DNA of 64,000 bases from Thalassotalea sp. HSM 43 (GTDB lineage: Bacteria > Pseudomonadota > Gammaproteobacteria > Enterobacterales > Alteromonadaceae): positions 3,186,302-3,250,301 of the forward strand of contig NZ_CP038493.1 of the NCBI RefSeq assembly GCF_004752005.1. The letters are read 5' to 3'. A program made the translations under genes and the position numbers. Positions 1-18,421 of the stretch are shown here, piece by piece. The notes under the pieces are model-generated. The model made no database searches and had not been told where the DNA came from. It worked only from the letters and a program-made list of their open reading frames with translations. The number at the start of each line of letters is the position of its first letter. Position 1 is the first letter of the stretch.

Positions 1-2506
1 TGCACAGGCAAACGCTGATGAGAATATCGAAGTTATTGAGGTTACGGGTATCCGTGGCTCGAACAAGAAAAACCTAAACGCTAAGCGTTTCTCAAATTCA
101 ATTGTTGATGTCATCTCTGCAGAAGATATCGGTAAGTTTCCAGATAAAAACGTTGCTGAGTCATTGCAACGTATTCCTGGTGTAACTATTCAGCGTCAAT
201 TTGGTGAAGGTGCCGCAGTATCGATTCGTGGTGCAGGCCAAGATTTGACACTCACCACACTAAATGGTCAAAACGTCGCCTCAACCGGTTGGTTTGTACT
301 TGAGCCAGCAAAACGTAGTTTTAACTATGAGTTGTTGCCTTCGGAAATCGTTGGTGATTTGGAAGTTCATAAGACATCTCGCGCCGATTTGGCCGAAGGT
401 GGTATCGGTGGTACGGTAATCGTTCACACCCGTAAGCCGCTTGATCTTGACGCCAATACAATTTTCGCATCTGCTGAAGCGTCTTATCAAGAAGATTCAG
501 AAGAAACTGACCCACAAGCGTCAGCTATGTACAGCTGGAAGAATGAATCTGAAAGCATCGGTTTCTTACTATCCGGTGTTGCTCAAGAACGCTCACTACA
601 ACGTCAAGGTAATGAAGCATTCTGGGAGTGGGGTGCAGGCCCTGTTGCGTTCGAACAAGAACGTAAACGTACCGCTATCACTGCGACATTACAGTACGCA
701 CCAACAGATAACATGGATTTCGTGTTGAACTACATCGACATGGAAATGGAAGCGGATAACACCAACTACGCGTTATGGTTAACGCAAGCTGATACCAGTT
801 GGGGCGATTCGTCTAACACAACATGGTTAGGTCAAGAAACGGATGCCGAAGGTAATATTACTAACCAAGGTACGCAAGTAGCAGGTCCTCTAAACGTAGC
901 GTTTTATCAAATGCGTCCACGTGAAGCGACCATGGACTCTGACGTTGTTGATCTAACCTTCAACTATCAAGGCGATGGTTACACATTTAAATTCCAAGCA
1001 GGTACGACCGAATCAACTGGTGGTACTGACTTTGAAATGGTTCTAGACGACGGTCTTGTACCTTCCCTTGCCGGTGGTTCTTACGATTTTACTGGTGGCA
1101 ATCAAACCTGGGACCTCCCTGCTGGGTTTGATATGAAAACCTATGATCCAGGTTCATTGGCAATGGGTACAGGTCCTAACTTTAACCGTACACCGAAAAC
1201 CGACGAAGAAAGCTACTTTCAAGCTGACGTAACGTTCGACGTTGACTATGGTTTGGTTACTGCGATTAAGACCGGTTTTAAGTTCGCTGAGCATGAAACT
1301 ACCTCACGTCGTTATGAGTACATTCAATCAGATGATTTCAACAATGTGATCAGCACCGATGGTATCCAAGATGGCACTATTGATGTTGGCGCAGGTAACT
1401 ACCAAATCAAGAAGTTTGATGCCGATGCATTGAAAGATTGGGCAAAAGCCAGCATCGTTGGTGAGACGGAAGACCTAGGTTCTTACAGCCACATTGAAGA
1501 AGATAACTGGGCAGCTTACGTTATGGCTGAATTCCAAGGTGACGGTTTTGCCGGTAACTTTGGTGTACGTTATGCCGCGACAGATGCGAAGTCTATCTAC
1601 TATGTAGATGGCGAGAAAACAAACACTGATTCTGATTACGCTGAATTCTTACCAAGCTTTAACTTGAAGATGGACCTAGCCGATGACGTAATCATGCGTG
1701 TTGCTGCATCTCGTGCGATGGCTCGTCCACAGTACGTCGATATGTACGTAAACCCAAATGTTGTTGGTACCAACGATGACTTGCCTGATAACCAGTTCTG
1801 GGTTGTTGGTAACGTTGGTCTAGACCCGTTCATCGCTGATATGTTTGATATCGGTATCGAATGGTACTTCAACGAAAGTTCATTACTAAGTGCGACGTTG
1901 TTTATGAAAGACGTTAAGAACTTCGTAACCTTTAACGAGTATCACGCTGATGCAGCAGACATCGACTTCCCACTAGAAGGTGATGAAGCGGCAAACGGTT
2001 GGACTGTACAAGAGAAGTCTAACGGTAAAGATGCGCAAATCGAAGGTCTTGAACTTCAGTATCAACAGGACTTTGGTAATGGTTTTGGTACCCTTATCAA
2101 CTATACCTACACAGATACGAATACCGATGAAGACACCTACGTTGATGGTAACCCGTTCTTGAGCGACAGCTCGAAAGATCAGTACAACATCACTGGTTAC
2201 TACGAAAATGACACGATTTCAGTGCGTTTATCATATAACTGGCGTAGTGAGTACATGATTCGCGAAACAGGTTCATACGGTAACCGTTTACACGATGACT
2301 TCGGTTCACTTGATTTGAGTGCAACTTGGCATGTTACTGATTACCTAGACATCCGTCTAGATGCAGTTAACTTGACTGAAGAAGACGCTAAACAGTTCGG
2401 TAATAACAACTACCCAACGTCATACAGCGGCTTCACACGTGGCTTCCCATTATATGAATATGAGATGGCACGTCGTGTAAATGTAGGCGCTAGCGTACGT
2501 TTCTAA
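1..2506 (+). CDS. TonB-dependent outer-membrane receptor (5' end outside window)
   Basis: The frame is open from base 2 with no start, so this is the last 834 residues of a larger receptor; the TTG at 164 is internal. Near the visible N-terminus IEVIEVTGIRGS resembles a TonB box. The plug domain follows (ESLQRIPGVTIQR, then a GGIGGTV stretch around visible residue 135) and then a long beta-barrel that closes on a terminal Phe (VGASVRF). Receptors of this type import ligands across the outer membrane with energy from TonB-ExbBD. Because the genes downstream handle GlcNAc, I infer a chitin-oligosaccharide or GlcNAc ligand; the sequence alone does not prove it. A terminator follows at once, so it may be transcribed apart from sapC. 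Confidence 0.93.
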   Translation, partial: AQANADENIEVIEVTGIRGSNKKNLNAKRFSNSIVDVISAEDIGKFPDKNVAESLQRIPGVTIQRQFGEGAAVSIRGAGQDLTLTTLNGQNVASTGWFVLEPAKRSFNYELLPSEIVGDLEVHKTSRADLAEGGIGGTVIVHTRKPLDLDANTIFASAEASYQEDSEETDPQASAMYSWKNESESIGFLLSGVAQERSLQRQGNEAFWEWGAGPVAFEQERKRTAITATLQYAPTDNMDFVLNYIDMEMEADNTNYALWLTQADTSWGDSSNTTWLGQETDAEGNITNQGTQVAGPLNVAFYQMRPREATMDSDVVDLTFNYQGDGYTFKFQAGTTESTGGTDFEMVLDDGLVPSLAGGSYDFTGGNQTWDLPAGFDMKTYDPGSLAMGTGPNFNRTPKTDEESYFQADVTFDVDYGLVTAIKTGFKFAEHETTSRRYEYIQSDDFNNVISTDGIQDGTIDVGAGNYQIKKFDADALKDWAKASIVGETEDLGSYSHIEEDNWAAYVMAEFQGDGFAGNFGVRYAATDAKSIYYVDGEKTNTDSDYAEFLPSFNLKMDLADDVIMRVAASRAMARPQYVDMYVNPNVVGTNDDLPDNQFWVVGNVGLDPFIADMFDIGIEWYFNESSLLSATLFMKDVKNFVTFNEYHADAADIDFPLEGDEAANGWTVQEKSNGKDAQIEGLELQYQQDFGNGFGTLINYTYTDTNTDEDTYVDGNPFLSDSSKDQYNITGYYENDTISVRLSYNWRSEYMIRETGSYGNRLHDDFGSLDLSATWHVTDYLDIRLDAVNLTEEDAKQFGNNNYPTSYSGFTRGFPLYEYEMARRVNVGASVRF

Positions 2507-2530
2507 ACACAAACGCGTTAATCACACGTT

Positions 2531-2558
2531 AAAAAAGGGGAGATTTCTCCCCTTTGTT
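2531..2558 (+). terminator. Rho-independent terminator after the TonB receptor
   Basis: An A-run leads into the stem GGGGAGA, a two-base loop (TT), then TCTCCCC and TTTGTTT. It lies 25 bases after the receptor stop and about 105 bases before the sapC start. Confidence 0.8.
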
Positions 2559-2662
2559 TAGAAAATTTGTAAATATCACTTGTATTGGCTTGTTTAACCG
2601 GTTTAGTCTTATCGACGCATAATTATAAATTCGAAATCAGGCAGCATTTTGGGAGTAGTAAA

Positions 2663-3376
2663 ATGAGCCAAGCAAATATTCAGCCTTTGAACAAAAATGT
2701 TCACGGCAAAACAAAGATTAAAAACCAAACTAATTTCCCTCACGTAAGCGGCCAGCATTTGGCGCCTGTTGTTGTACAGGAGTTCTCACGTGCAGGTGCT
2801 GAATTCCCAGTAGTGTTTGTTAAAAACTCTGAATCAGGTGAATTCCAACCGGTAGCACTATTTGGTGTTAAGCCCGGTGAAAACTTATATACCGCCGAAG
2901 AAAACTGGCAAGGTACCTATGTACCAGCAGCATTGACCCATTTTCCTCTGGCGTTGGTTCCTGAAAGCCAGGAATCTGACAAGTTTATGGTAGTTATTGC
3001 TACTGAAAACAGTGTTGTAAATGAAGAAGAGGGTAATGCCCTGTTCCAAGACAATGGCGAAGAAACCGAATATCTAGCTCGTCGTAAGCAAGCACTTGGT
3101 AAGTTTTTTGAAAACTCTCATATTACCAAAGCTTTCACCAAAGAATTGGTTGATCGTGAGCTGCTTATCCCGCAAAACTTGGATATCCAAGCAAATGGCG
3201 AGAAGATTCAAATTAACGGTTTGTACATCGTCGATGAAAAGAAACTTAATGAACTTTCAGATGAAGAGTTTCTGACGTTGCGTAAACGCGGCATGATTGG
3301 CCCAATCTACGCACACCTGAACTCTGTTAACCAAATACATCGTCTGGTTAAAAAGAAAGTGTCATTAAGCAGTTAA
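2663..3376 (+). CDS. SapC family protein
   Basis: A 237-residue protein resembling the SapC family (PF07277): a PVVVQEFSRAGAEFPVVFVK-type N-terminal segment, then ALFGVKPGENLY and a WQGTYVPAALTHFPLAL stretch. The ATG at 2663 is preferred because GGGAG lies just upstream; an in-frame TTG at 2585 would add 26 unlikely residues and has no ribosome site. No signal peptide or membrane helix is visible. SapC was named for a surface-layer locus of Campylobacter, but in marine and plant-associated proteobacteria it recurs beside TonB receptors and halogenase-like genes, as here, and its role there is unknown. It is probably the first gene of an operon with the next two. Confidence 0.85.
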   Translation: MSQANIQPLNKNVHGKTKIKNQTNFPHVSGQHLAPVVVQEFSRAGAEFPVVFVKNSESGEFQPVALFGVKPGENLYTAEENWQGTYVPAALTHFPLALVPESQESDKFMVVIATENSVVNEEEGNALFQDNGEETEYLARRKQALGKFFENSHITKAFTKELVDRELLIPQNLDIQANGEKIQINGLYIVDEKKLNELSDEEFLTLRKRGMIGPIYAHLNSVNQIHRLVKKKVSLSS

Positions 3377-3384
3377 CTGACATA

Positions 3385-3409
3385 GGAGTCAGGCTTATAA
3401 CCTGACTCC
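3385..3409 (+). other. Stable intercistronic stem-loop between sapC and halogenase-like gene 1
   Basis: GGAGTCAGG (3385-3393) and CCTGACTCC (3401-3409) form a perfect 9-bp stem with a 7-base loop, 8 bases after the sapC stop. No T-run follows, so it looks more like an mRNA processing or stability element, or a partial attenuator, than a full terminator. The ribosome site AGGG of the next gene starts 4 bases after it. Confidence 0.65.
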
Positions 3410-3424
3410 TTCCAGGGATGCTTT

Positions 3425-4963
3425 ATGAACGAATCCGTGCAATCTATCACCATAGTAGGTGGTGGTTCATCGGGCTGGATGACGGCCCTTTATTTAAACC
3501 AGCTTTATAATCACAAACAACAACGCGTAGCTATTCGCGTTATCGAGTCCAAAGACATTGGTATCCTCGGTGTTGGTGAAGCCACGGTTCATTCAATTCG
3601 ATTCTTCTTTGCCGCCATGGGCATCGATGAAAACGAGTTAATCCAAGCAACAAATGCGACGCTTAAAACGGGCATTATGTTTCGTAACTGGATGAAGCCA
3701 AAACAAGGCAATAGCCACGAATATTTCCATCCTTTTGAGCATCAAGCTCTTGGTAGCATTACCGATATATCATCTGCGTGGATCTTGAGTTCGCGCCAAC
3801 TATTTGAACGCTATGATCAAGGCGTTAGTGTGTCGGCGCATTTGATGAAAAATAACCTGACGCCAAAAATGGCGCAATCTAAACCTTATCAAGGCGTTGT
3901 CCCTTACGGCTACCATTTAGATGCCACTATGATGGCACGCTTTCTACGTGATAAAGCGAAGCAACGTGGCGTCGAACACGTTGAAGCGACAGTAACCGAT
4001 GTAATAACTGTTGGTAACAACATCGAGCGTGTTATCACTGAGCAGGGCGAATTTTCAGCAGATCTGTTCATTGATTGCAGTGGCTTTAAGGGCTTGTTGA
4101 TTGAGCGTTTAAAAGATAATAACTGGCAGAGCTTCAAAAAAGAATTGCCGTGCACTAAAGCGGTGGCGATGCAACTTAAGTTTGCCGATAAGCAAATTCC
4201 ACGTAGCTATACCACGGCCACGGCATTGACCAATGGCTGGGTATGGGAAATCGATCTTAATAATCGCCGTGGCACCGGCTATGTCTATGATGGCGACCGA
4301 ATCAGTGCTGAACAAGCTGAGCAGGAACTGAAACAGTTTTTGCAGCAAAGCGGTGATATAGAAGTGGTAAAAACCCTGCACCTTGATATGAAAGTTGGCT
4401 GTCGTAAAGAGTTTTGGGTTGGCAATTGCATTAGCATCGGCTTATCGGGCGGCTTTATTGAGCCGTTAGAGTCAACTGGACTGCATATCATCAATATCGG
4501 CGCCAAATTATTGGCGACCCATCTCAATGAAAAACATACTCAGCAATCGACTCGTGATTCATATAACCGATTGATGAATGGTGTTTATGATGATCTCAAA
4601 CGCTTTATTGTCTTGCATTATTGTTTGACGGATCGTGATGATAGCGAATTTTGGCGTTATGCACAAACGACCGCGCAATACAGCGATGACCTGCAACGTC
4701 AATTGCAGATTTGGCGCCATAAAACCTGTGAATTTATGGACTTAAGTGGTGGTTTTGCAACGACGTTTACCGACGAAAACTATCGTTTCATTTTATATGG
4801 CATGGACTATTTACCGCAATTGCACATGCCGTTTGATGAGCAAGAATGCCAGCAAATGTTTGCCAGGTTGCAGATGATGGCAACACGAGCTCAGTCGGTA
4901 GTGTATTCCAACTACGACTGGTTACAAATGATGCATGGTGAGCGCACCGTCAGTGCAAACTAA
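3425..4963 (+). CDS. Flavin-dependent tryptophan-halogenase-like protein 1
   Basis: 512 residues of the Trp_halogenase family (PF04820). The FAD-binding GGGSSG is at residues 12-17 and GVGEATV at 49-55. Lys81 (TLKTG) aligns with the catalytic lysine of PrnA (Lys79, from memory). ESTG at 349-352 matches the PrnA glutamate/chloride-site segment. The diagnostic WxWxIP motif reads WVWEID (272-277), so the proline is lost. It is co-directional with sapC and 19 bases ahead of a paralogue. Family members near TonB receptors are common in Xanthomonas, Caulobacter and Alteromonadales, and a few act on free indole. Whether this one halogenates anything, or is a flavin enzyme of another type, cannot be told from sequence. 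Confidence 0.88.
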   Translation: MNESVQSITIVGGGSSGWMTALYLNQLYNHKQQRVAIRVIESKDIGILGVGEATVHSIRFFFAAMGIDENELIQATNATLKTGIMFRNWMKPKQGNSHEYFHPFEHQALGSITDISSAWILSSRQLFERYDQGVSVSAHLMKNNLTPKMAQSKPYQGVVPYGYHLDATMMARFLRDKAKQRGVEHVEATVTDVITVGNNIERVITEQGEFSADLFIDCSGFKGLLIERLKDNNWQSFKKELPCTKAVAMQLKFADKQIPRSYTTATALTNGWVWEIDLNNRRGTGYVYDGDRISAEQAEQELKQFLQQSGDIEVVKTLHLDMKVGCRKEFWVGNCISIGLSGGFIEPLESTGLHIINIGAKLLATHLNEKHTQQSTRDSYNRLMNGVYDDLKRFIVLHYCLTDRDDSEFWRYAQTTAQYSDDLQRQLQIWRHKTCEFMDLSGGFATTFTDENYRFILYGMDYLPQLHMPFDEQECQQMFARLQMMATRAQSVVYSNYDWLQMMHGERTVSAN

Positions 4964-4982
4964 CGGTTATTAAGGGACGATT

Positions 4983-6581
4983 GTGGAAAACAAGCAAGCA
5001 AATCATGGTGCTGATGGCGCCATCGAACATATAGTCGTTGTTGGTGGTGGCACCGCAGGCTGGCTGAGCGCCAATCATTTGCTAAAGCAACTTGGTAAGC
5101 GCAATATACGCATTACGCTAATCGAATCGCCAGACATAGCCACGGTAGGTGTTGGTGAAGGCACAGTGCCGATGATGCGCCAAACCCTGCAAGAATTAGG
5201 AATTCGTGAAACCGAATTTATTCAACGATGTGACGTCACCTTTAAACAAGGCATTAAGTTCATCGACTGGTTGGATAACCCTGATGACAGCCTAGCCAAT
5301 GCTGACAAGCCTTATTATCACCATATATTTGATTACCCATTAATCCATGAGTTTAACGATTTAACCGAACATTACCTCTCAGGGCATGCACCAAAGCAAA
5401 CCAGTTTTGTTGATGCGGTTGCGTTCCAAGGTAAGGTGTGTGACCAACATCGTGCGCCAAAAGACATAACCACGCCAGAATATCAGGGCCAATTGCATTA
5501 CGCCTATCACCTAGATGCCGGAAAATTTTCAGAACTATTAAAAGAGCATGCCATTAAACAAGGTGTGCATCATGTTAAAGCCAATGTGACTGACGTCAAA
5601 CTGGCTAACAACGGTGATATTGAGGCACTTGAAACCGATTGTGCGGGTGTTATCTCAGCGCAATTTTTTGTCGATTGCAGTGGCTTTCGCTCATTATTAT
5701 TAGGCCAAGCGCTTGGCGTCGATTTTATTGATAAAAGCGATGTGTTGTTTGTTGATAAAGCCGTTGTTGCGCAAATTGCTTACCCTGAAGGGCAACCAGA
5801 CATACCATCTTACACCTTATCTACTGCACAAAAACATGGCTGGATATGGGATATCGGTTTGCAATCACGTCGCGGTGTCGGCCATGTCTACAGCTCGCGC
5901 TATTGCAGCGAGCAAGAGGCCAAGGCGACGTTAATTGATTATATAAATGCCGGTGAGCATGACGCACAAACCGAGATTAAGCTGCGCACTATAGATATGA
6001 AAATAGGCTATCGAGAAAAATTTTGGTCACGCAATTGTGCGGCGATAGGTTTATCTCAGGGCTTTGTCGAGCCACTTGAAGCGACCGGACTACTGGTATT
6101 TGATGCCACCGCAAAACTATTGGCGAGTCAATTTCCAGCCAATCGCAGCCATATGGATATTGTCGCTAAACAGTTTAATAGCCGAGTAAACGAAAGCTGG
6201 TTAAGAGTCATCGATTTTATCAAGTTACATTACTGTCTAAGTCGCCGCGACGACAGTGAATTTTGGCGAGCCAATCGAGACCCAAGCAGCTGCCCACAAT
6301 CACTACAAGACAGGTTAGCATTGTGGCGTCATCAAGCACCTAGCGCCTACGACTTTGCCAGTCGATTCGAGATATTCAATCTAGAAAATTATTTGTATGT
6401 ACTGTATGGCATGGAATTCGACAGCCAAGTGCCTAACAATTCTGACCTAGAGCAAAATAAGGCGCAGGCGCAAGCCTTTTTTGCCCGTGTTGCTGAGCAT
6501 GGCAACACATTAACAGCGCAAATGCCTGATCACGCAGAATTGCTGAACAAAATAAATAAATTCGGGTTGCAGACCCGATAA
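4983..6581 (+). CDS. Flavin-dependent tryptophan-halogenase-like protein 2
   Basis: 532 residues, a clear paralogue of the preceding gene. It starts with GTG, set by AAGGGA five bases upstream. FAD motif VVGGGTAGW is near residue 20, GVGEGTV near 57, and the expected catalytic lysine is Lys88 (TFKQGIKF). Two key places differ from canonical halogenases: WxWxIP is WIWDIG (287-292), and ESTG is EATG (366-369), so the serine that helps frame the halide/FAD site is alanine. The lysine and glutamate remain. Co-translated with copy 1, it may form a heteromeric or sequential pair. Product and substrate are unknown. Confidence 0.87.
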   Translation: MENKQANHGADGAIEHIVVVGGGTAGWLSANHLLKQLGKRNIRITLIESPDIATVGVGEGTVPMMRQTLQELGIRETEFIQRCDVTFKQGIKFIDWLDNPDDSLANADKPYYHHIFDYPLIHEFNDLTEHYLSGHAPKQTSFVDAVAFQGKVCDQHRAPKDITTPEYQGQLHYAYHLDAGKFSELLKEHAIKQGVHHVKANVTDVKLANNGDIEALETDCAGVISAQFFVDCSGFRSLLLGQALGVDFIDKSDVLFVDKAVVAQIAYPEGQPDIPSYTLSTAQKHGWIWDIGLQSRRGVGHVYSSRYCSEQEAKATLIDYINAGEHDAQTEIKLRTIDMKIGYREKFWSRNCAAIGLSQGFVEPLEATGLLVFDATAKLLASQFPANRSHMDIVAKQFNSRVNESWLRVIDFIKLHYCLSRRDDSEFWRANRDPSSCPQSLQDRLALWRHQAPSAYDFASRFEIFNLENYLYVLYGMEFDSQVPNNSDLEQNKAQAQAFFARVAEHGNTLTAQMPDHAELLNKINKFGLQTR

Positions 6582-6586
6582 CCTCG

Positions 6587-6608
6587 AAGGCTCACTAGCT
6601 AGCCTTTT
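6587..6608 (+). terminator. Weak stem-loop before the hexosaminidase gene
   Basis: AAGGCT, an 8-base loop, AGCCTT and a short T-run lie directly after the second halogenase-like gene. The stem is only 6 bp, so read-through into the next gene, 30 bases on, is likely. Confidence 0.35.
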
Positions 6609-6637
6609 CACATAATAACGACAACAAAAGAGATACC

Positions 6638-9274
6638 ATGATGAAAAACGCTTTTGCACTAAGTTTGCTTGCTTCGTCTTTGCTGTTTGGCTGCTCTGAG
6701 CCGGTAAGCAATGTCAAAATAGACAAACAAGCTGAAGTCGACAAATTTGCTGATAGCGCCAAGATTGAATTCGAATTGGTAAGCAATGTGCCAAGCGATA
6801 AATGTGACTCGGCACGCACCGATGGCAATTGTTTTCATGGTCGATTACATATAACTCCGGCCGCGGATTACGCCGCCGATGACTTACATATTTACTTTTC
6901 CCAAATAAACCCTGTGCAAAGTGTTGCATCAGAGCACTTTACTATTGAACACATCAATGGCGACTTGCATCGTCTGCAAACAAAGGCTGATTTTAACGGC
7001 TTGCAAGCGGGACAAACCTACACCATAGATTACTGGGTTGATTTTTGGACCTTGTCTGAAACCGATGCTCTACCAAATTACATTGCCCATCTTGATGGTA
7101 CCGAGGCGCGTGTTATTGTCAGTACACAAACCCAAATCGATGCGGAAACAGGCCTGGAGCGATACCCGTTCGTAAAAAGTTTTGCCGATGAAACGACCCA
7201 GTTTAAGCGAACCAAAGACGATGCCACACAATGGGCCACCGCAGAACGTCTGTATCAACGTAACGAAAAATTAAGCGCCAGTGATCACCAGTTGGCCACG
7301 GCACTTATTCCGACACCATCGCAAGTTATCGTCTCTACCGGCAGTATTGACTTGCAACAAGGCATTAAGCTGAACGTTACTGGCGTTGATAAAACGCAAT
7401 TAGCCATGGCAATTAAGCGCTTGCAGCAATTGGGCATTAGCGAAAGCGATTCAGGTGTTGAGCTTAACCTAACACTTGATGCGTCATTAGCCATCGCCAA
7501 TGAAGGCTATCAATTAAAAAGCTCAGAGCAGGGCATTGCCATTGCAGCAAGTTCAATCGGCGGTCTATTTTATGGTGTGCAATCAATCGCCGGGCTTGTT
7601 GATGTGACGAAATTGACCATGCCGCATGTCAATATTGATGATGCGCCGCATTATGGTTTTCGTGGCATGATGGTGGATGTTGCTCGAAACTTCCATTCGA
7701 AACAGTTTGTGCTTGATTTAATTGAGCAAATGGCTGCTTATAAGCTGAATAAATTGCACCTTCATCTTGGTGATGACGAAGGTTGGCGCTTAGAAATTAA
7801 CGATTTACCTGAGCTGACCGATATTGGCTCAAAACGATGCTTTGATTTGACCGAACAACGTTGTTTATTGCCGCAATTAGGTGCGGGCGTAGACCCAACG
7901 TCAGTTGTTAACGGTTATTACAGCCGCGAAGATTACATTGAGATATTGCAATATGCCGATCAACATCAGATCCAAGTGATTCCATCACTGGATATGCCAG
8001 GCCACTCTCGTTCATCTATTGTAGCGATGAAAGCTCGCTATAAGCGCCTTATGGCAGAAGGGGATGAGCAAGCAGCAAAACAATACTTATTGCACGATGA
8101 AAACGATACCACGGTGTACTCTTCAATTCAGTATTACAACGACAATACCATTAACGCCTGTATGGAATCATCGTATGCGTTTGTCGCTAAAGTCATGGAT
8201 GAAGTCAAAGCGCTACACGCAGAAGCGGGCCAGCCATTAACACGCTATCACATTGGTGCCGATGAAACCGCCGGTGCTTGGGTCGAGTCTCCAATTTGTC
8301 AGGCATTTCTTGCCAATAATGATGAAGGCATCACCAAAGCCGAACAATTGGGTGGTTACTTTGTTGAGCGCGTTGCCAAGATATTATCTGAACGTGGCAT
8401 CGAAACCGCTGGCTGGAGTGATGGCATGAGCCATACCCGCTTTGAAAAAATGCCGAGTTTTGCTCAAGCCAACAGTTGGGGATTGACCTACTGGCAAGGC
8501 CATCAAGTTGCTCATAAGTTAGCCAACAATGGTTGGGATCTTGTGGTGTCGAGCCCAGATGTGACTTATTTTGATTTTCCTTATGAGGCGGATCCTAAGG
8601 AGCACGGCTATTATTGGGCGTCACGCCACAGCAACACCGAAAAACTGTTTCAATTTATGCCAGATAATCTGCCGGTTCACGCCGAGTTTTGGTTAGACCG
8701 CCAAGATTTACCGTACCAAACCGATGACACATTGCAAAAAGATGAGCAGGGCAAGGTGGTTTCAGGACCATTAAAGGCAGGTGTTCGTTTTGCCGGTATT
8801 CAAGGTCAATTGTGGAGCGAGAATACCCGTAACGACGATTTAGCCGAGTACAAAATCTTTCCGCGCCTATTTGCTTTAGCAGAGCGCGCATGGCACAGCC
8901 CAGAATGGGCGGTAGCTTACGATTACAATGGCGCTACCTTTGATCAGAACAGTGGTCGCTTTAGCGCTGAAAAGCGCCAACAACGAGATCAACTGTGGGC
9001 AAATTTTGCCGATACGATAGCCAATAAAGAGCTTGCTAAATTAGAGCTAGCGGATATTTTTTATCGACTACCGACGCCTGGTGCTAAAGTGGTTGACGGA
9101 CAATTGCATATGAACAGCCCTTACCCAGGGTTAACCATGCAATATCGTTATAATGAGCAATGGCAACAATGGACAGCACCGGTGGCGATAGACTCCGATG
9201 TCGAAGTTAGGTTGTTGTCGGTAAATGGCGATAGAGCTGGGCGCAAGTTGCTTGTTAAAGTGCCTAAAGGCTAG
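6638..9274 (+). CDS. hexA: Beta-N-acetylhexosaminidase (chitobiase), GH20 lipoprotein
   Basis: 878 residues, the usual size of bacterial chitobiases. The N-terminus is a lipoprotein signal with lipobox LFGC (Cys19); Ser at +2 favours the outer membrane. Then come a chitobiase N-terminal beta-sandwich (about 40-170), a GH20b domain (about 225-335), the GH20 TIM barrel (from PHYGFRGMMVDVARN, about 340-780) with the catalytic pair Asp542-Glu543 in HIGADE, and a C-terminal domain (about 800-878). Retaining GH20 enzymes cut terminal GlcNAc from chitooligosaccharides by substrate-assisted catalysis. It follows the halogenase-like genes by 56 bases and precedes the nag operon, so it would supply GlcNAc to NagP. 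Confidence 0.94.
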   Translation: MMKNAFALSLLASSLLFGCSEPVSNVKIDKQAEVDKFADSAKIEFELVSNVPSDKCDSARTDGNCFHGRLHITPAADYAADDLHIYFSQINPVQSVASEHFTIEHINGDLHRLQTKADFNGLQAGQTYTIDYWVDFWTLSETDALPNYIAHLDGTEARVIVSTQTQIDAETGLERYPFVKSFADETTQFKRTKDDATQWATAERLYQRNEKLSASDHQLATALIPTPSQVIVSTGSIDLQQGIKLNVTGVDKTQLAMAIKRLQQLGISESDSGVELNLTLDASLAIANEGYQLKSSEQGIAIAASSIGGLFYGVQSIAGLVDVTKLTMPHVNIDDAPHYGFRGMMVDVARNFHSKQFVLDLIEQMAAYKLNKLHLHLGDDEGWRLEINDLPELTDIGSKRCFDLTEQRCLLPQLGAGVDPTSVVNGYYSREDYIEILQYADQHQIQVIPSLDMPGHSRSSIVAMKARYKRLMAEGDEQAAKQYLLHDENDTTVYSSIQYYNDNTINACMESSYAFVAKVMDEVKALHAEAGQPLTRYHIGADETAGAWVESPICQAFLANNDEGITKAEQLGGYFVERVAKILSERGIETAGWSDGMSHTRFEKMPSFAQANSWGLTYWQGHQVAHKLANNGWDLVVSSPDVTYFDFPYEADPKEHGYYWASRHSNTEKLFQFMPDNLPVHAEFWLDRQDLPYQTDDTLQKDEQGKVVSGPLKAGVRFAGIQGQLWSENTRNDDLAEYKIFPRLFALAERAWHSPEWAVAYDYNGATFDQNSGRFSAEKRQQRDQLWANFADTIANKELAKLELADIFYRLPTPGAKVVDGQLHMNSPYPGLTMQYRYNEQWQQWTAPVAIDSDVEVRLLSVNGDRAGRKLLVKVPKG

Positions 9275-9318
9275 TTAGGTCAATGGTTTAGCAATTAATT
9301 TCAAAAAAATGAAAAAAG

Positions 9319-9340
9319 TAAATGACAGCGCTGTCATTTA
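9319..9340. promoter_or_regulatory. NagR-like (LacI family) operator
   Basis: A perfect 22-bp palindrome with the core AATGACAGCGCTGTCATT (9321-9338) and a central CG, as LacI-family operators have. It closely resembles the NagR site I recall from Shewanella GlcNAc regulons. It lies 75 bases before nagK. No nagR gene is in the window. Confidence 0.85.
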
Positions 9341-9350
9341 CCGTTAATAT
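9322..9350 (+). promoter_or_regulatory. Probable nag operon promoter overlapping the operator
   Basis: ATGACA (9322-9327, 5/6 to the -35 consensus), a 17-base spacer and TAATAT (9345-9350, 4/6 to the -10). The operator covers the -35 and most of the spacer, a geometry that suits repression by a LacI-type protein. Confidence 0.55.
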
Positions 9351-9414
9351 TCTAATAACAAAATCGCAAACTGCTGATCACAGATGGTTTGGCACTTTGT
9401 AGAATGAGGCAAGA

Positions 9415-10299
9415 ATGGATAGCAAGAATCAACAATTATATTTGGGTATCGATGGTGGTGGCAGCAAGTGTAAAGCTGTGATCATGAATACCGATATGCA
9501 GATTCTAGGCGAGGGGATCGCAGGGGCAGCAAACCCGTTTCATAATTTAGAGCGTGCCCAACAGTCGATAATCGATGCCTGTGTATTGGCATTATCTGAC
9601 GCCGGTTTAGAACGCAGCGCTATGCACAGCCTCATTGCAGGTGTTGGCTTGGCTGGTGTTAATCTGCCGAAATACTTTCAGTTAATGCAAGAATGGCAAC
9701 ACCCATTTAAGCAAATGCATTTGGCAACCGATCTGCATATTGCCTGCCTTGGTGCTCATGGTGAAGCGAAAGGCGCAATCATGATCAATGGTACGGGCTC
9801 AGTCGGTTATGTAACAAGTGGTGTTGAATCACTGGTTATCGGTGGTCATGGCTTCCCACACGGCGACATTTGCTCTGGTGCATGGTTAGGTTTTCGTGCT
9901 GTTGAGCAAGTGTTACTAAGTGACGATAAGCTTATTGAAGACACATTATTAACCGATAAGTTGTTCAAAAAGCTGGCGGTGAAGGACGCGAATACGTTAA
10001 TTGAAGCGATTGCTGGTCAAGGTGCGACCTTTTATGGTCAGTTTGCTATCGATGTATTTGATTGTGCTGAAGCGGGTGACGCCATAGCACTGCAAATCAT
10101 AGAACAAGGCGCCGCATATTTCTGCCAAGTATTTGATCGACTTATTGCTTTTCAACAAGGCAAAGTTGCCTTGATAGGCGGCATCAAAACTCGCCTAATG
10201 CCTTATTTACCAAAGCGTATTCATGAGCAAGTTATAGAACCTGTCAATCCTCCGGAATACGGCGCCGTTTTGTTTGCGATTAAACAAGTTAACAGCTAA
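9415..10299 (+). CDS. nagK: N-acetylglucosamine kinase, BadF/BadG family
   Basis: 294 residues. The N-terminal phosphate-1 loop LGIDGGGSKCKAV and the internal MINGTGSVGY (phosphate-2) and GGI (adenosine) segments mark the ASKHA fold of BadF/BadG-type sugar kinases. It would convert cytosolic GlcNAc to GlcNAc-6-phosphate with ATP. It is first of four genes after the NagR-like operator, and the next start is 28 bases from its stop, so co-transcription with nagB and nagA is expected. Family kinases differ in sugar; GlcNAc is assigned from the context. Confidence 0.92.
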   Translation: MDSKNQQLYLGIDGGGSKCKAVIMNTDMQILGEGIAGAANPFHNLERAQQSIIDACVLALSDAGLERSAMHSLIAGVGLAGVNLPKYFQLMQEWQHPFKQMHLATDLHIACLGAHGEAKGAIMINGTGSVGYVTSGVESLVIGGHGFPHGDICSGAWLGFRAVEQVLLSDDKLIEDTLLTDKLFKKLAVKDANTLIEAIAGQGATFYGQFAIDVFDCAEAGDAIALQIIEQGAAYFCQVFDRLIAFQQGKVALIGGIKTRLMPYLPKRIHEQVIEPVNPPEYGAVLFAIKQVNS

Positions 10300-10327
10300 T
10301 CAATTTCATTACTTTATGGAAGACACT

Positions 10328-11323
10328 ATGATCTCTTTAATGCAACAAGAAGCAAAACAAGCACCAGACGTTATAAAGCAACAGATTCATGAAAACGCGC
10401 CTATCGCTGCAAAAATAGGTGCCAAATTAACTGAATTTGCGCCGAAGATGGTGATGATCATAGGTCGTGGCTCGTCAGATCATGCCGGTGTATTCGCCAA
10501 GTATTTGATTGAAATTGAAGCCGGTATTCCAACATTTGCAGCGGCGCCATCGGTTGCCTCTGTATATGGCAAAACGTTACAGCTCGCCAACGCATTTGTC
10601 ATCGTTATCTCTCAATCAGGTCGCAGCCCTGACATTCTTTCACAAGCACAAATGGCCAAAGACGCCGGTGCTTATGTTGTTGCTTTAGTTAATGATGAAA
10701 GCTCACCATTGGCGGCGTTGGTCGACGATGTGTTACCGCTTAGAGCCGGTCCTGAAAAATCTGTCGCGGCCACGAAAAGTTACTTAGCAACCTTATCGGC
10801 ATTATTGCAACTGACGGCGCACTGGACTGATAATACATCTTTAGTTGACGCTTTAGAGCAATTACCAAGCGGTTTGCAAGCGGCGGTTGATAGCCAAGTA
10901 CAATTGACCTCCGAGTCTTTGCAAAACACTCGTAACTTAGTCGTGCTGGGGCGTGGTTTAGGTTATGCGGTATCTAAAGAGATTGCGCTGAAATTAAAAG
11001 AAGTTTGTTCGATTCATGCCGAAGCCTTCTCAAGTGCGGAGTTTTTACACGGTCCAGTTACCTTAGTTGAGCAGCAACTAACCATTGTCGATTGTTTGGT
11101 AAATGATGAATCAAAAGACGCGCATCAACAACAAGTTGCTGAAGTAAAAAGTCGTGGGGCCGATGTTATTCACCTAAACCAGATTGTTGCCGATATGCAC
11201 CCAAGACTGGCACCATTGTTAGTATTACAACGTTTTTATTTGGATGTAGAGCACGTTGCTGTGAGCAAAGGTTTTAATCCTGATGAGCCGAAAGGCTTGA
11301 AAAAAGTTACCCAAACTCTGTAG
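10328..11323 (+). CDS. nagB: Glucosamine-6-phosphate deaminase, NagB-II type (two SIS domains)
   Basis: 331 residues with two SIS sugar-isomerase domains (about 30-170 and 195-320) and no glutamine amidotransferase domain, unlike GlmS. Motifs include GRGSSDHAG, SQSGRSPD and AEAFSSAEFLHGP. NagB-II converts GlcN-6-P to fructose-6-P and ammonia and replaces the unrelated NagB-I in Alteromonadales. The ATG at 10328 has GGAAGA just upstream; an in-frame ATG at 10316 and a TTG at 10274 overlapping nagK are less likely. nagA starts 20 bases after its stop. Confidence 0.9.
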   Translation: MISLMQQEAKQAPDVIKQQIHENAPIAAKIGAKLTEFAPKMVMIIGRGSSDHAGVFAKYLIEIEAGIPTFAAAPSVASVYGKTLQLANAFVIVISQSGRSPDILSQAQMAKDAGAYVVALVNDESSPLAALVDDVLPLRAGPEKSVAATKSYLATLSALLQLTAHWTDNTSLVDALEQLPSGLQAAVDSQVQLTSESLQNTRNLVVLGRGLGYAVSKEIALKLKEVCSIHAEAFSSAEFLHGPVTLVEQQLTIVDCLVNDESKDAHQQQVAEVKSRGADVIHLNQIVADMHPRLAPLLVLQRFYLDVEHVAVSKGFNPDEPKGLKKVTQTL

Positions 11324-11343
11324 CGCAAGAAAGGATAGCCATC

Positions 11344-12480
11344 ATGCAGCGTATTGCCATTGAAAAATTCTACGACGGTGAACAATTTCATCAAGATGTT
11401 GTTGTCGTTATCGAACATGGCCAAATTGTCGCTATTGAAGCCGCTAATGAATCCGAAGCGCTTAAGAGTGGCACTATGGTGGCTGGTTTTATTGACGTGC
11501 AAGTCAATGGTGGCGGTGGCGCATTATTTAATAGCAGCACCGATGTTAACAGCATCATCACCATAGGCAAAGCCCATGCCCAATATGGCACCACGGGCTT
11601 TTTACCGACCTTAATTACCGACGATGTGGCGATTATGGCAGATGCCGCCGATGCAATAGCTGAAGCGATCGCCACTCAAGCGGCAGGTGTGTTAGGCGTT
11701 CACTTTGAAGGGCCGCACTTATCGGTTGCTAAAAAAGGGGTACATAGCCCCGAATTTATCCGTCCTATTAGCGCGCAAGAAATGGCGATTTTTACTCGTC
11801 AGGATTTAGGGCAGGTTATCGTTACCCTTGCACCCGAGAACGTTGCAACCAGTGATATTGAAACTCTGGTGAAGGCAGGCGTTAAAGTATGTCTTGGTCA
11901 CTCCAACGCTGAGTTTGACACGGTGCAAGCAGCCACTGATGCTGGAGCGACTGGCTTCACCCATTTGTTTAATGCCATGTCAGCATTTACCTCTCGTCAA
12001 CCAGGTATGGTTGGCGCTGCATTACTAAATGACTCGACCTGGTGCGGTCTGATTGTCGATGGACATCATGTGCATTATCAGTCCGCAGCGATAGCTATCC
12101 GTGCTAAAGCGCAAGGTAAAATGATGTTAGTTACCGATGCTATGTCGGTGGTAGGCACAGACGAACAAAGCTTTCCGTTCTTCGGTGTTGATATTATTCG
12201 TACCGGTGATCGCTTAAATGCGCCGACTGGCGAATTGGCAGGCTCATGTCTTGATATGGCATCAGCGGTAGCAAACACCGTTAATAACGTCGGTATAGAG
12301 CTTGGTGAGGCATTAAATATGGCGTCACGTTATCCTGCAGAGTTTTTAGGCAAAGCAGCGCAATACGGCAGCTTGAAAGTTGGTATGCGAGCTGACTTGG
12401 TTATCCTTGATGATAACTTAAACGTGTTAGAAACATATATTGCGGGTGAGCAAGTATTCACCGGTGCAGCTCAATCTTGA
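11344..12480 (+). CDS. nagA: N-acetylglucosamine-6-phosphate deacetylase
   Basis: 378 residues, amidohydrolase superfamily, normal length for NagA. Motifs: HFEGPHLS with the metal-binding Glu, LGHSNAEF (metal His), THLFNAMSAFTSRQPG (substrate site) and LVTDAMS with the catalytic Asp. It deacetylates GlcNAc-6-P to GlcN-6-P, the substrate of the neighbouring NagB-II. The ribosome site AAAGGA lies upstream of the ATG. Third gene of the nag operon. Confidence 0.96.
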   Translation: MQRIAIEKFYDGEQFHQDVVVVIEHGQIVAIEAANESEALKSGTMVAGFIDVQVNGGGGALFNSSTDVNSIITIGKAHAQYGTTGFLPTLITDDVAIMADAADAIAEAIATQAAGVLGVHFEGPHLSVAKKGVHSPEFIRPISAQEMAIFTRQDLGQVIVTLAPENVATSDIETLVKAGVKVCLGHSNAEFDTVQAATDAGATGFTHLFNAMSAFTSRQPGMVGAALLNDSTWCGLIVDGHHVHYQSAAIAIRAKAQGKMMLVTDAMSVVGTDEQSFPFFGVDIIRTGDRLNAPTGELAGSCLDMASAVANTVNNVGIELGEALNMASRYPAEFLGKAAQYGSLKVGMRADLVILDDNLNVLETYIAGEQVFTGAAQS

Positions 12481-12595
12481 GCATGGATATAAACAAAACC
12501 AGCGTATAAAGAATTTAAATAAAACATATTAATAACAATAAAAAGGGACAGGGCATAGGGCTCAGAAAATCCCGGTACTTTAAATAGGCGAATCT

Positions 12596-13906
12596 ATGAC
12601 TTCAAAAGTTGCGACTCAACAACAGGCGAACAGCTTGCTGCCGATGGTAATCATTGGCGTGCTGTTTTTTATCTTCGGCTTTGTTACCTGGCTTAACGGC
12701 TCACTTATCCCGTTTTTAAAAATCATCTGTGATTTAAATGAATTTCAGGCATTATTTGTCACCTTTGCGTTCTATATCGCCTATACCGTTATGGCCTTGC
12801 CTATGTCCGGTATACTGCGTCGCACCGGTTACAAAAATGGTATGGCCGTTGGTCTGGCGATCATGGCTGTCGGTGCCATTTTATTTATCCCTGCGGCAAA
12901 AACAGGCCATTATTTTATCTTCCTAACGGCTTTGTTCGTTTTGGGTACTGGCTTAACCATACTGCAAACCGCATCAAATCCTTATCTCGTTCATATCGGC
13001 CCGAAAGAGACCGCAGCAGTGCGTATTTCAATCATGGGCATTGTCAATAAATGCGCTGGTGTTATCGTGCCGATTTTATTCACCGCATTAATCTTGTCAG
13101 GCATGGGTGAATTTTCCGAAGAGTACATGGCAAGTCTCGACGCACAAACTCGTGCTGACCAAATTGAGGCACTATCAAATCGCCTTATTACACCATACAT
13201 TTATATGGCTATTGTCTTGGCGGGTCTGATTGCGCTAGTTAAATATTCATCGCTACCTGAGATTGAGTTTGAAGAAAGTGACAATGACGTAGAAGACAAA
13301 TCTGGCATTTTACAATATCCACAAGCCATTCTTGGTGCCCTTGCTTTATTCGCCTACGTGGGTATCGAAGTAATCGCCGCAGACACCATAGGCTTATTTG
13401 GCTCTGGCATTGGCGTTGAACACTTTGCCAGCTTAACCTCATATACCATGGTCTGTATGGTTATCGGCTATATCTTAGGTATCATCGCTATTCCAAAGTA
13501 TGCCTCTCAAGAAAAGGCTCTAGTGGTATCGTCTATCGCCGGTATTTTATGTGTTATTGGCGCCACAACCGCGTCCACTCAAAGTAGCGCTATTGCAGAT
13601 GTGTTATGGGGCTGGAGTGGTATTCCAGTGATCCCTGATGCCGTAACCTTTGTTGCCTTGATGGGACTGGCGCACGCCATGGTATGGCCGTCAATTTGGC
13701 CACTGGCTTTAGAAGGTCTTGGTAAATACACGGCGCAAGGCTCTGCGTTGTTGATTATGGGTATTGCCGGTGGTGCATTATTACCATTATTGTTTGGCTT
13801 TGTTGCCGAAGGTGGCAGTACGCAGTTTGCTTATTGGGTAGGCTTACCGTGTTACTTATTTATCCTTTATTACGCCGTAAAAGGCCATAAAATGCGTAGC
13901 TGGTAA
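12596..13906 (+). CDS. nagP: GlcNAc permease, MFS transporter of the FucP/GluP family
   Basis: 436 residues, about 12 membrane helices. LFFIFGFVTWLNGSLIPFLK and LTILQTASNPYL are hallmark segments of the fucose/glucose symporter branch. With nagK, nagB and nagA directly upstream, it fits NagP, the proton- or sodium-coupled GlcNAc importer known from Shewanella. A 115-base gap separates it from nagA; I see no clear terminator there and no second copy of the operator, so it is probably transcribed from the nagK promoter. A strong terminator ends the run. Confidence 0.9.
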   Translation: MTSKVATQQQANSLLPMVIIGVLFFIFGFVTWLNGSLIPFLKIICDLNEFQALFVTFAFYIAYTVMALPMSGILRRTGYKNGMAVGLAIMAVGAILFIPAAKTGHYFIFLTALFVLGTGLTILQTASNPYLVHIGPKETAAVRISIMGIVNKCAGVIVPILFTALILSGMGEFSEEYMASLDAQTRADQIEALSNRLITPYIYMAIVLAGLIALVKYSSLPEIEFEESDNDVEDKSGILQYPQAILGALALFAYVGIEVIAADTIGLFGSGIGVEHFASLTSYTMVCMVIGYILGIIAIPKYASQEKALVVSSIAGILCVIGATTASTQSSAIADVLWGWSGIPVIPDAVTFVALMGLAHAMVWPSIWPLALEGLGKYTAQGSALLIMGIAGGALLPLLFGFVAEGGSTQFAYWVGLPCYLFILYYAVKGHKMRSW

Positions 13907-13935
13907 CCCCTAAATAAACCCCCCTCCTCCCTCGA

Positions 13936-13983
13936 AAAGGGCTTGGGCTAAGTAAAAACGCTTAGTCCCAAGTCCTTTTTTTT
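13936..13983 (+). terminator. Strong terminator ending the nag operon
   Basis: An almost perfect stem of about 15 bp (AGGGCTTGGGCTAAG paired with CTTAGTCCCAAGTCCT, two mismatches) with loop TAAAAACG, followed by eight T. Confidence 0.92.
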
Positions 13984-14029
13984 GTGCCTGTTAAAATACA
14001 TTAACGACTTTACTGAATTGTATTTTCCT

Positions 14030-14128
14030 CCTGATAACAAAACGTTACACTAAACAAAGGTGAATTTGATGCTCGTCAATGTATCATTGTCATCTATACT
14101 AATTAATTGTAATCCAATAGTTATCAGG
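14030..14128. repeat. Inverted repeat pair flanking the RND promoter region
   Basis: CCTGATAAC (14030-14038) and its exact reverse complement GTTATCAGG (14120-14128), 90 bases apart. The downstream arm includes the ribosome site of the adaptor gene. They could be paired operator half sites or an RNA fold over the start. Confidence 0.45.
14073..14100 (+). promoter_or_regulatory. Candidate promoter for the first RND operon
   Basis: TCGTCA (14073-14078), a 16-base spacer and TATACT (14095-14100). The -10 match is good, the -35 only fair. Confidence 0.35.
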
Positions 14129-14135
14129 AATAACA

Positions 14136-15290
14136 ATGAAGAAAGCTATCTCTGTGTTATGTATTTCTGCATCCCTCGTGCTGTCATTATCCGCTTGCGA
14201 CCAAAAACAACGGGCCCAACAGCAGATTGAGGTGGTCGTGCAAGACGTTAAAACCTACCCATATCAAGGCGGCGAAGAGTTTGTTGGCCGACTTGAAGCG
14301 GTCAGTGATGTTGAAATTATTGCTCGTGTTAAAGCACCGATCGAAAAAGTACATTTTAAGCAGGGGGCTATGGTCACCGAAGGCGAAGTACTGTACACCT
14401 TGAATCAAGATGAATTGAAGGCTCAATACGACCAAGCACAGGCAGAAGTTGGCAAATCATCATCAGCGCTTGATATCGCTCGCAAGAATTATAATCGCGG
14501 TTTAGAGCTTGCGCCTGATGGTTATATCTCAGGGTCCGAATTGGATCAGTTAGAATCAAAAGTTTCCGAAACAAACGCACAATTAGAGGCGACCAAAGCG
14601 AATTTACGAAATGCTCAGGTAAACCTTGATTATACCGAAATTCACGCACCAATAGGCGGTAAGATTGACCGCTCTAAATTTACCTCTGGTGACTTGGTTG
14701 GTCCTGATGTGGGGTCATTAACCTCCATTGTTGCTGAAGACACTATGGAAATTCCGTTCCAAGTCAGCGAAAAAGTGTATTGGAGAATGGTTCGTAAAAT
14801 GCAACGTGGTGAAGTAAGCAAAAGCTCGCGAAAAGCTATTGTCGAAATCGCCTTTTCAGCAAACGATATATACGAACATCAAGGCAGCATTAATTTTGTC
14901 TCCAACCGTGTAAACCCTGAAACAGGCTCAATGGAAGTCAGAGCGTCGGTACCAAATCCTGATGGCATTTTAAAACCAGGGCAATACGTAACGGTCAATA
15001 TTAAGGTGCCTGTTGCGGTTGATACGCCGATGATATCGCAAATGGCAGTGCAGTCTGATCAACAAGGCGATTATGTCTTGGTGGTTGATAAAAAAGGTGT
15101 CGTTAACCGTGTTAACGTACAATTAGGGCGTCGTGTCGATACCTTAGTGATTGTTGAAACTGGCCTTGAAATTGGCGCCCAAGTGATTATTCGTGGTGTG
15201 CAGCGTGTCAGGGATGGGCTGCAAGTTAAAGCCATTCACATGGATGACATCGAACAAGCAGCATCTTCTGTATCTGTTATTGAATCATAA
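14136..15290 (+). CDS. RND efflux periplasmic adaptor (MexE/AcrA type lipoprotein)
   Basis: 384 residues. Lipoprotein signal ending LSAC (Cys21). The membrane-fusion-protein order is visible: a first beta-barrel/lipoyl half ([19 protein letters not shown]), a coiled-coil hairpin (about 95-160), the second lipoyl half ([14 protein letters not shown]), then beta-barrel and membrane-proximal domains ([14 protein letters not shown]). It would link the inner-membrane pump encoded 8 bases downstream to an outer-membrane channel. No TolC-like gene or local regulator is present, so the channel must be encoded elsewhere. Substrate unknown. Confidence 0.92.
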
Positions 15291-15298
15291 GGTGCTCA

Positions 15299-18200: not shown

Positions 18201-18421
18201 GATTCCGTGCGGTATGTATGACAGGTGTATCTTTCATTGTTGGTATCATACCGCTAGTTATCGCCACAGGTGCTGGTATGTTTAGCCAAAAATCCCTTGG
18301 TTTTACCATCTTTGGTGGTATGACGATGGCCCTAGTGGTCGGTACGGTGATCATTCCTGTATGTTACGTTGTTGTACAAAGCGTTAGGGAAAAACTCAAA
18401 GGTGAGCAGACAAGCAAGTAA
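15299..18421 (+). CDS. RND multidrug efflux pump, HAE1 family (MexF/AcrB-like)
   Basis: 1040 residues, full length for an AcrB-type pump. [15 protein letters not shown] is the first membrane helix, and TM4 carries the proton-relay aspartates in [13 protein letters not shown]. Two large periplasmic loops and twelve helices are evident. It expels drugs or metabolites from the inner membrane/periplasm using the proton gradient, in a tripartite complex with the adaptor 8 bases upstream. The start ATG follows AAGGTGCTC. A strong terminator follows. Confidence 0.95.

Follow-up and report, generated by a model that had tools for sequence, protein, structure and literature searches.

A halogenase-type gene pair and its motif

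We analysed a stretch of 64,000 nucleotides from Thalassotalea sp. HSM 43 (contig NZ_CP038493.1, positions 3,186,302 to 3,250,301; hereafter the window), focusing on two adjacent genes, halA and halB. As an earlier note on this DNA described, the pair lies between genes for a TonB receptor and a SapC-family protein upstream and genes for a GH20 chitobiase and N-acetylglucosamine (GlcNAc) use, the nag genes, downstream. HalA (3425-4963, forward strand, ATG start, 512 amino acids) carries WVWEID and ESTG, and HalB (4983-6581, forward strand, GTG start, 532 amino acids) carries WIWDIG and EATG. The two are Trp_halogenase (PF04820) paralogues, scoring 412 and 425 bits against a cut-off of 21 bits, and both open reading frames are intact in the window's frame list.

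The residues listed in the earlier note were all at the positions claimed: the GxGxxG motif for flavin adenine dinucleotide (FAD; GGGSSGW in HalA, GGGTAGW in HalB), the tunnel lysine (Lys81, Lys88) and the catalytic glutamate (Glu349, Glu366). It was also right that both proteins have lost the proline of the WxWxIP signature (WVWEID at 272, WIWDIG at 287) and that HalB has EATG instead of ESTG. Alignments with relatives (28 and 27 of them) showed no variation at K81/K88, at E349/E366 or at the motif's two Trp and its Ile. Both AlphaFold2 models were confident, with a predicted local distance difference test of 90.0 and a predicted template-modelling score of 0.89 for HalA, and 90.8 and 0.91 for HalB. 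When the HalA model was searched against the PDB, the best 50 matches as listed were flavin halogenases at query template-modelling scores of 0.86-0.92, and they included PrnA, the comparison that the note had proposed, as well as RebH, PyrH and AbeH. These four share the FAD motif, Lys and Glu with HalA and HalB; they differ in belonging to natural-product clusters and in acting on free Trp. The aligned AbeH motif, WIWTIP, retains the proline, unlike those of HalA and HalB.

The halogenase fold of HalB was recognised by sequence, the best phmmer matches being 9lu2 (E 3e-157) and 2pyx (E 6e-135). The former, a putative tryptophan halogenase of Pseudoalteromonas sp. L11-2 released in 2026, is its closest solved sequence, and the latter, a structural-genomics entry from Shewanella frigidimarina, is among the closest; HalA is only 30-34% identical to either. 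BrvH (6frl) and Xcc4156 (6y1w) belong to the same family and differ in keeping the proline (WQWGIP, WMWRIP) and in having ESTS or ESTN; according to the available text of PMC7336383, both have been proposed to act on a peptide. Inspection by eye of the printed alignments for residues that bind free Trp found no obvious YYEN-like stretch; Trp4 is described as a residue with a role in such binding in the available part of PMC8269204. No signal sequence was found in HalA or HalB, whose N-termini begin at the Rossmann fold, and we therefore place both in the cytoplasm. Taken from sequence and models, HalA and HalB are in all likelihood active flavoenzymes, and they are a variant branch of an already known family.

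The earlier note called the motif broken, a description that did not hold up. Our survey covered 99 PF04820-type proteins in 60 loci, almost all of which belong to a single family of the order. At position six of the motif, P stood in 46, G in 30, D in 13, A in 6, Y in 2, E in 1 and S in 1, and the other key residues were retained almost throughout (W 98, W 96, I 96, Lys 98, Glu 97). HalA and HalB likewise keep W, W and I, with P replaced by D and G, respectively. Because P is kept in only 46 of the 99, the full WxWxIP is no marker of this halogenase branch. In the phylogeny of the paralogues that the note had called for, the HalA rows from GlcNAc loci form a single clade in which all 12 have W[VA]W[EQ]ID, with a fixed D, and ESTG. 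Named records held 15 HalA orthologues at 58-65% identity (Thalassotalea, Shewanella, Pseudoalteromonas, Rheinheimera, Bowmanella, Ferrimonas and unplaced Gammaproteobacteria), all with W[VA]W[EQ]ID and 14 with ESTG, the fifteenth being cut by a contig end. Solved homologues also lack the proline: 2pyx has the WIWDIG of HalB, 9lu2 has WIWDIA and 9ltb has WLWDIA. Since the variant is conserved over long divergence, we regard it as a lineage variant and not as a broken site; loss of function was rejected, as the variant is clade-specific, is kept across genera and occurs with invariant catalytic columns. Halogenase-like genes whose motif residues are unrecognisable adjoin true halogenases at L077:9031-10563, L095:6889-8403 and L156:6535-7989, and their products are possible non-catalytic partners.

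Association of the halogenases with receptor types

The genome encodes six PF04820 proteins and ten TIGR01782 receptors (nine over the cut-off), and all six halogenase genes lie in gene runs downstream of three of the ten receptors. The other two sets have the order receptor-hal-SapC-Cupin_8-hal-DUF6445 (L040, G000:C1:492-501 kb) and receptor-hal-hal (L041, G000:C1 1880-1886 kb), and they adjoin beta-glucan and alpha-glucan genes, as read from the neighbours by eye. The GlcNAc setting is thus not peculiar, being one of three receptor/halogenase settings in this genome. A TonB receptor gene stood no more than four genes away for 89 of 99 halogenases from relatives and for 54 of 58 from 37 loci of named records. 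Of 146 related genomes, 91 contained members of the halogenase family (at E 1e-40), and TIGR01782 receptors were listed for 102 (at E 1e-60); on comparison of the two lists, G137 was the only halogenase genome without a listed receptor of this type. The comparison within the family of the window says little, because nearly every genome has both; outside it, the receptor was found in 12 of 13 halogenase genomes versus 3 of 45 others.

A receptor-seeded search of the 146 genomes, which is independent of the halogenases, found the window's receptor type in 14 genomes at 64-100% identity, the next best match being 45%. In every one of the 14, the receptor locus also encoded an EATG-type HalB (47-100%). 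HalA (at least 54%) was present in 12 of them, the exceptions being G026 and G102, but in no genome of the remaining 132, where the closest HalA-like match was 44%, in G063. Other receptor types come with other enzymes. Receptors with NGNFVAST(G/A)WF occur with EASA-type pairs (L103, L204; in L188 with a third enzyme in addition), and triples of ESTS/ESTA enzymes occur in L193, L202, L208, L209, L212 and L200, where a contig end truncates the receptor. As listed, the triple is constant in these six loci, with two ESTS enzymes, one ESTA enzyme and one ESTS enzyme on the opposite strand. The DWF(I/V)L receptor type had an intact halogenase in none of 12 nag loci selected by nagK and in none of three loci from genomes chosen for lacking the halogenase family; a Cupin_8 gene was near in 6 of these 15. 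In L182 (G007), the receptor is split into two reading frames and one halogenase of the pair is shortened (489 versus 519 amino acids), with nag genes apparently intact; the damage could be a sequencing error of the draft assembly.

Loci of the same genus as the window showed how these parts are exchanged. In L042-L045, identity to the window was 76-85% for the receptor, 72-78% for SapC, 61-67% for GH20 and 60-68% for nagK. In L103, the receptor was only 40% identical, with SapC at 73%, GH20 at 67%, nagK at 68%, nagB at 80% and LacI at 78%; its halogenases are a different, EASA-type pair, and it has an extra SapC of 41%. L177 had a receptor of 39%, with SapC at 74%, GH20 at 66%, nagK at 67% and nagB at 79%, and it retains a 96-amino-acid in-frame relic (L177:10953-11243) in which HalA residues 2-61 are fused to HalB residues 494-529. 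No other match to the family at E 1e-40 was found in that genome, which reads as a natural double loss. In L184, which had no trace of a halogenase, the receptor was at 39%, SapC at 72%, GH20 at 59% and nagK at 60%. In L182 (G007), the receptor is split into two reading frames and one halogenase of the pair is shortened (489 versus 519 amino acids), with nag genes apparently intact; the damage could be a sequencing error of the draft assembly.

We compared the halogenases with the trees of the neighbouring genes. The loci of the first sample were mostly chosen by HalA similarity, so this sample is rich in the AB class. A nagK-selected sample (39 loci in a set of 66 genomes; receptor and nagK both usable in 26) was meant to offset this bias; it holds no AB locus because already-sampled genomes, HalA carriers included, were left out. 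In the coding of classes, L053 was placed in class QQQ though its enzyme is HalA-like, and the "mix" bin comprises five loci. Across 50 nag loci common to the four trees compared, halogenase class changed 6 times on the receptor tree, where the minimum possible is 5, compared with 23 times on the nagK tree, 21 on LacI and 22 on GH20; 300 shuffles gave a mean of 25.4 and a least value of 20-22. Presence or absence changed once on the receptor tree, 9 times on nagK, 7 on LacI and 9 on GH20 (shuffle mean 11, least 7-8). With SapC included (34 loci), class changes numbered 4 on the receptor, 12 on nagK and 10 on SapC, and over all nag rows (62; 61 for nagK) class changed 8 times on the receptor and 27 on nagK, presence 4 and 12 times. 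For 132 receptors of all kinds, halogenase presence changed 11 times (shuffle mean 33.9, least 29).

Partial Mantel tests pointed in the same direction. The HalB-receptor correlation, given nagK, LacI and GH20, was 0.79 (0 of 2000 permutations, n=31), and HalB-GH20 given the receptor was 0.16 (240 of 2000). SapC behaved differently from the halogenases: SapC-receptor given nagK was 0.25 (69 of 2000) versus 0.73 for SapC-nagK given the receptor (0 of 2000). GH20-receptor given nagK was 0.09 (500 of 2000). The joint occurrence of SapC, the halogenase pair and the receptor that the earlier note had suggested looking for was therefore found, but SapC follows the sugar genes whereas the halogenases follow the receptor. 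The same note had held that GlcNAc metabolism does not account for the pair, and the near uncoupling of halogenase class from the nagK, GH20 and LacI trees agrees with it. Together, these comparisons suggest that the halogenases are very probably dedicated to the receptor and not to GlcNAc catabolism. No paper on receptor-halogenase co-inheritance was recognised among the matches listed in the open-licence literature, as judged by title and the start of the abstract.

Neighbouring genes and NagR-like sites

The in-window part of the receptor gene (1-2506, forward strand) scored 533 bits as a TIGR01782-type TonB-dependent receptor; the full gene (L039:7912-10506, 864 amino acids) starts 89 bases before the window. 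It is followed by a gene for a SapC-family protein (PF07277, a family of unknown function; 2663-3376, forward strand, 237 bits), whose likely start is the ATG at 2663. A perfect 10-bp inverted repeat, read from the sequence, lies in the gap between sapC and halA (3384-3410), with no T-run behind it; it may govern the abundance of the transcript portion that carries the halogenases. Downstream of halB, all on the forward strand, are genes for a GH20 chitobiase or beta-hexosaminidase (6638-9274; PF00728, 314 bits), the GlcNAc kinase NagK (9415-10299; NF046058, 396 bits, cut-off 370), an SIS-type NagB (10274-11323), the deacetylase NagA (11344-12480) and a NagP-like MFS carrier (12596-13906; NF046060, 533 bits, below the cut-off of 625). 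NagB and NagA were assigned by position and sequence, with same-place orthologues in relatives, and the TTG start listed for the frame at 10274-11323 is probably too early. The regulator was assigned by position and similarity to LacI-type orthologues. A receptor, a glycoside hydrolase, a kinase, an inner-membrane carrier and a regulator lie together here, as in a TonB-receptor sugar uptake locus. Two open reading frames directly after the nag genes (14136-18421) read like an RND efflux pair of membrane-fusion protein and pump.

The palindrome TGACAGCGCTGTCA occurs in the gap between the GH20 gene and nagK (9323-9336), and an identical second copy lies upstream of the receptor gene, outside the window (L039:7806-7819). 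Both have no mismatch to what we take to be the NagR-binding consensus. Of 35 nag loci, 34 contained exact TGACANCGNTGTCA. It lay shortly upstream of the receptor gene in 32 of these, and in several it also adjoined a gene for a TPR sulfotransferase, which is found there in some relatives. According to the available text of PMC5343134, the NagR regulons of two Xanthomonas species include TonB receptors. The nag gene cluster of Shewanella, with NagR, NagK and NagP, has the same catabolic genes and regulator type as the window, and the available text of PMC2996990 contains neither the word "halogenase" nor "SapC" (count 0 for each); HalA and HalB were both present in four Shewanella loci that we fetched.

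Neighbouring families that are able to modify proteins include the TPR sulfotransferase and Cupin_8. The best PDB sequence matches of the L046 copy of the former were protein-tyrosine sulfotransferases. A TPR-sulfotransferase gene stands beside halogenases in L046, L047, L048, L049, L056, L136, L137, L141, L144, L145 and L148, several of them with a NagR-like site. Between another receptor type and the halogenase, L055, L058, L069 and L078 carry a gene for a protein of 261-263 amino acids, which has a PKCGTHL stretch in L055, L058 and L078; searches with the L058 copy found nothing in Pfam and nothing convincing in the PDB.

Possible role of the pair and rival explanations

The co-inheritance described above implicates the receptor, or something that only the receptor handles. 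Our preferred explanation is that HalA and HalB are receptor-dedicated enzymes of the halogenase type, dependent on reduced FAD, that probably modify the receptor precursor; as a whole we hold it tentatively, at somewhat less than an even chance. Through NagR-like control, the receptor, SapC, HalA, HalB and the chitobiase would be made together when chitin sugars are present. HalA and HalB would act in the cytoplasm on the receptor precursor, the likeliest substrate, before Sec export. In each enzyme, HOX (X = Br or Cl) would be led from the flavin along the tunnel to the lysine, to modify an aromatic side chain either of the receptor itself or of a small bound partner. Every receptor subtype would have its own enzyme set. 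QhpG sets a precedent, being a flavoenzyme of halogenase fold reported to act on a Trp within a protein in the cytoplasm, and the peptide substrates proposed for BrvH and Xcc4156 point the same way, as do the sulfotransferase and Cupin_8 families near some of the halogenases. We infer the activity, the cytoplasmic location, the receptor chain as acceptor and the halogenation reaction; that the receptor polypeptide is the acceptor we rate a little below an even chance, and halogenation seems somewhat the better choice over hydroxylation. The suggestion in the earlier note of a surface or secreted molecule as the target stands as to the surface, where such a role fits the data.

Several results weigh against this explanation. 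In a first contrast of 81 paired and 20 unpaired receptors, from which we dropped five paired rows (four with a different type of receptor, and the second receptor of L108) and short receptors (at most 700 amino acids in the first sample and 750 elsewhere), no receptor residue tracked halogenase presence. An independent-pair test showed none of six columns to be significant, the Trp content of paired receptors was not raised (1.48% versus 1.59%), and W127 and W209 mark the nag receptor clade, halogenase-free loci included. W209 and Y608 were rejected as acceptors: they are commoner in receptors of the HalB lineage, yet the W209 column has N in L040, L098 and L108, whose receptors likewise adjoin HalB-lineage enzymes. 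It is because no acceptor residue was found that we rate the whole explanation just below even odds despite the firmer tie to the receptor. The locus contained no recognisable flavin reductase gene; the genome has one PF01613 gene at another site. The contrast was also weaker in the 26 nagK-selected loci, with 5 class changes on the receptor and 9 on nagK (shuffle mean 10.5, least 7-8) and 3 versus 5 presence changes; a 17-locus subset gave 4 class changes on the receptor and 5-6 on the other trees. Some history is shared with the other genes, as HalB given the receptor correlated with nagK at 0.46 (0 of 2000), with LacI at 0.35 (5 of 2000) and with SapC at 0.52 (0 of 2000), and nagA-receptor given nagK left a weak, unexplained signal of 0.27 (18 of 2000). 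Finally, a small-molecule substrate is possible because the metagenomic halogenases MHal2-4 act on free indole, and MHal3 and MHal4 also brominate phenol, according to the available part of PMC8269204.

The pair might accordingly make a halogenated small molecule or peptide, such as a signal, a siderophore-like ligand or a deterrent, which would be recognised or taken up by this very receptor, with maker and carrier co-evolving. TonB receptors import small ligands, and a comparative-genomic study by Iyer et al. (NAR, 2010) reportedly read such neighbourhoods as making halogenated siderophores. We nevertheless consider this unlikely: no gene for a nonribosomal peptide synthetase, a polyketide synthase or a precursor peptide, and no scaffold-building gene of a halogenated siderophore pathway, was recognised among the reading frames of at least 100 amino acids in window 1-16000, part of which the family scans covered; the operon has NagR-like sites; and the three receptor/halogenase loci of this genome lie beside different gene sets. 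Alternatively, WxWxI(D/G) may enable the two enzymes to hydroxylate as flavin monooxygenases, perhaps on the same receptor acceptor. In the available text of PMC5945002, WxWxIP is suggested to stop halogenases from acting as monooxygenases, and this would agree with the D in 12 of 12 rows of the HalA clade and with EATG for ESTG in HalB. HalA and HalB also match the QhpG, LodB and GoxB models weakly, every match being below the cut-off; QhpG is not a halogenase but a flavoenzyme of halogenase fold that dihydroxylates peptidyl Trp in the cytoplasm (PMC7876137, available text). We judge hydroxylation rather improbable, since both Trp, the Ile and the tunnel Lys are all kept and a hydroxylase should not need the Lys.

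Receptor and halogenases might also travel together as mere neighbours by linked transfer, and the exchanged segment of L103 does look like one stretch, receptor-hal-SapC-hal. However, L177 and L184 keep a resident-type SapC while the flanking receptor and halogenases have changed, which plain linkage does not explain because SapC sits between the receptor and HalA in the window, and gene order and strand vary, for example in the Shewanella and Pseudoalteromonas loci. A connection without any functional tie is improbable on these grounds. We find it hardly credible that the pair performs a step of chitin or GlcNAc utilisation: it does lie inside a nag operon with NagR-like sites, but the same-genus exchanges, the nag loci with DWF(I/V)L receptors that lack an intact halogenase (12 of 12 and 3 of 3) and the tree tests, in which class was nearly uncoupled from nagK, GH20 and LacI, all disfavour a role in GlcNAc catabolism.

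Genes annotated as tryptophan halogenase are common beside TonB receptors, and transcripts of a Colwellia named rebH and prnA are reported from seawater experiments in the available text of PMC11337851. As the set of halogenases goes with the receptor subtype rather than with the sugar genes, the receptor is the candidate to examine. More speculatively, and with considerable doubt, many TIGR01782 sugar receptors may be finished post-translationally before export by dedicated enzyme sets, HalA and HalB being the set of one GlcNAc receptor type. Equally conjectural is that such tailoring sets, consisting of halogenase pairs or triples, Cupin_8 oxygenases and enzymes like protein-tyrosine sulfotransferases, could form a receptor-specific code in marine proteobacteria. 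The comparisons made here hint at dedicated enzymes that put a chemical finish on outer-membrane receptors of this kind.

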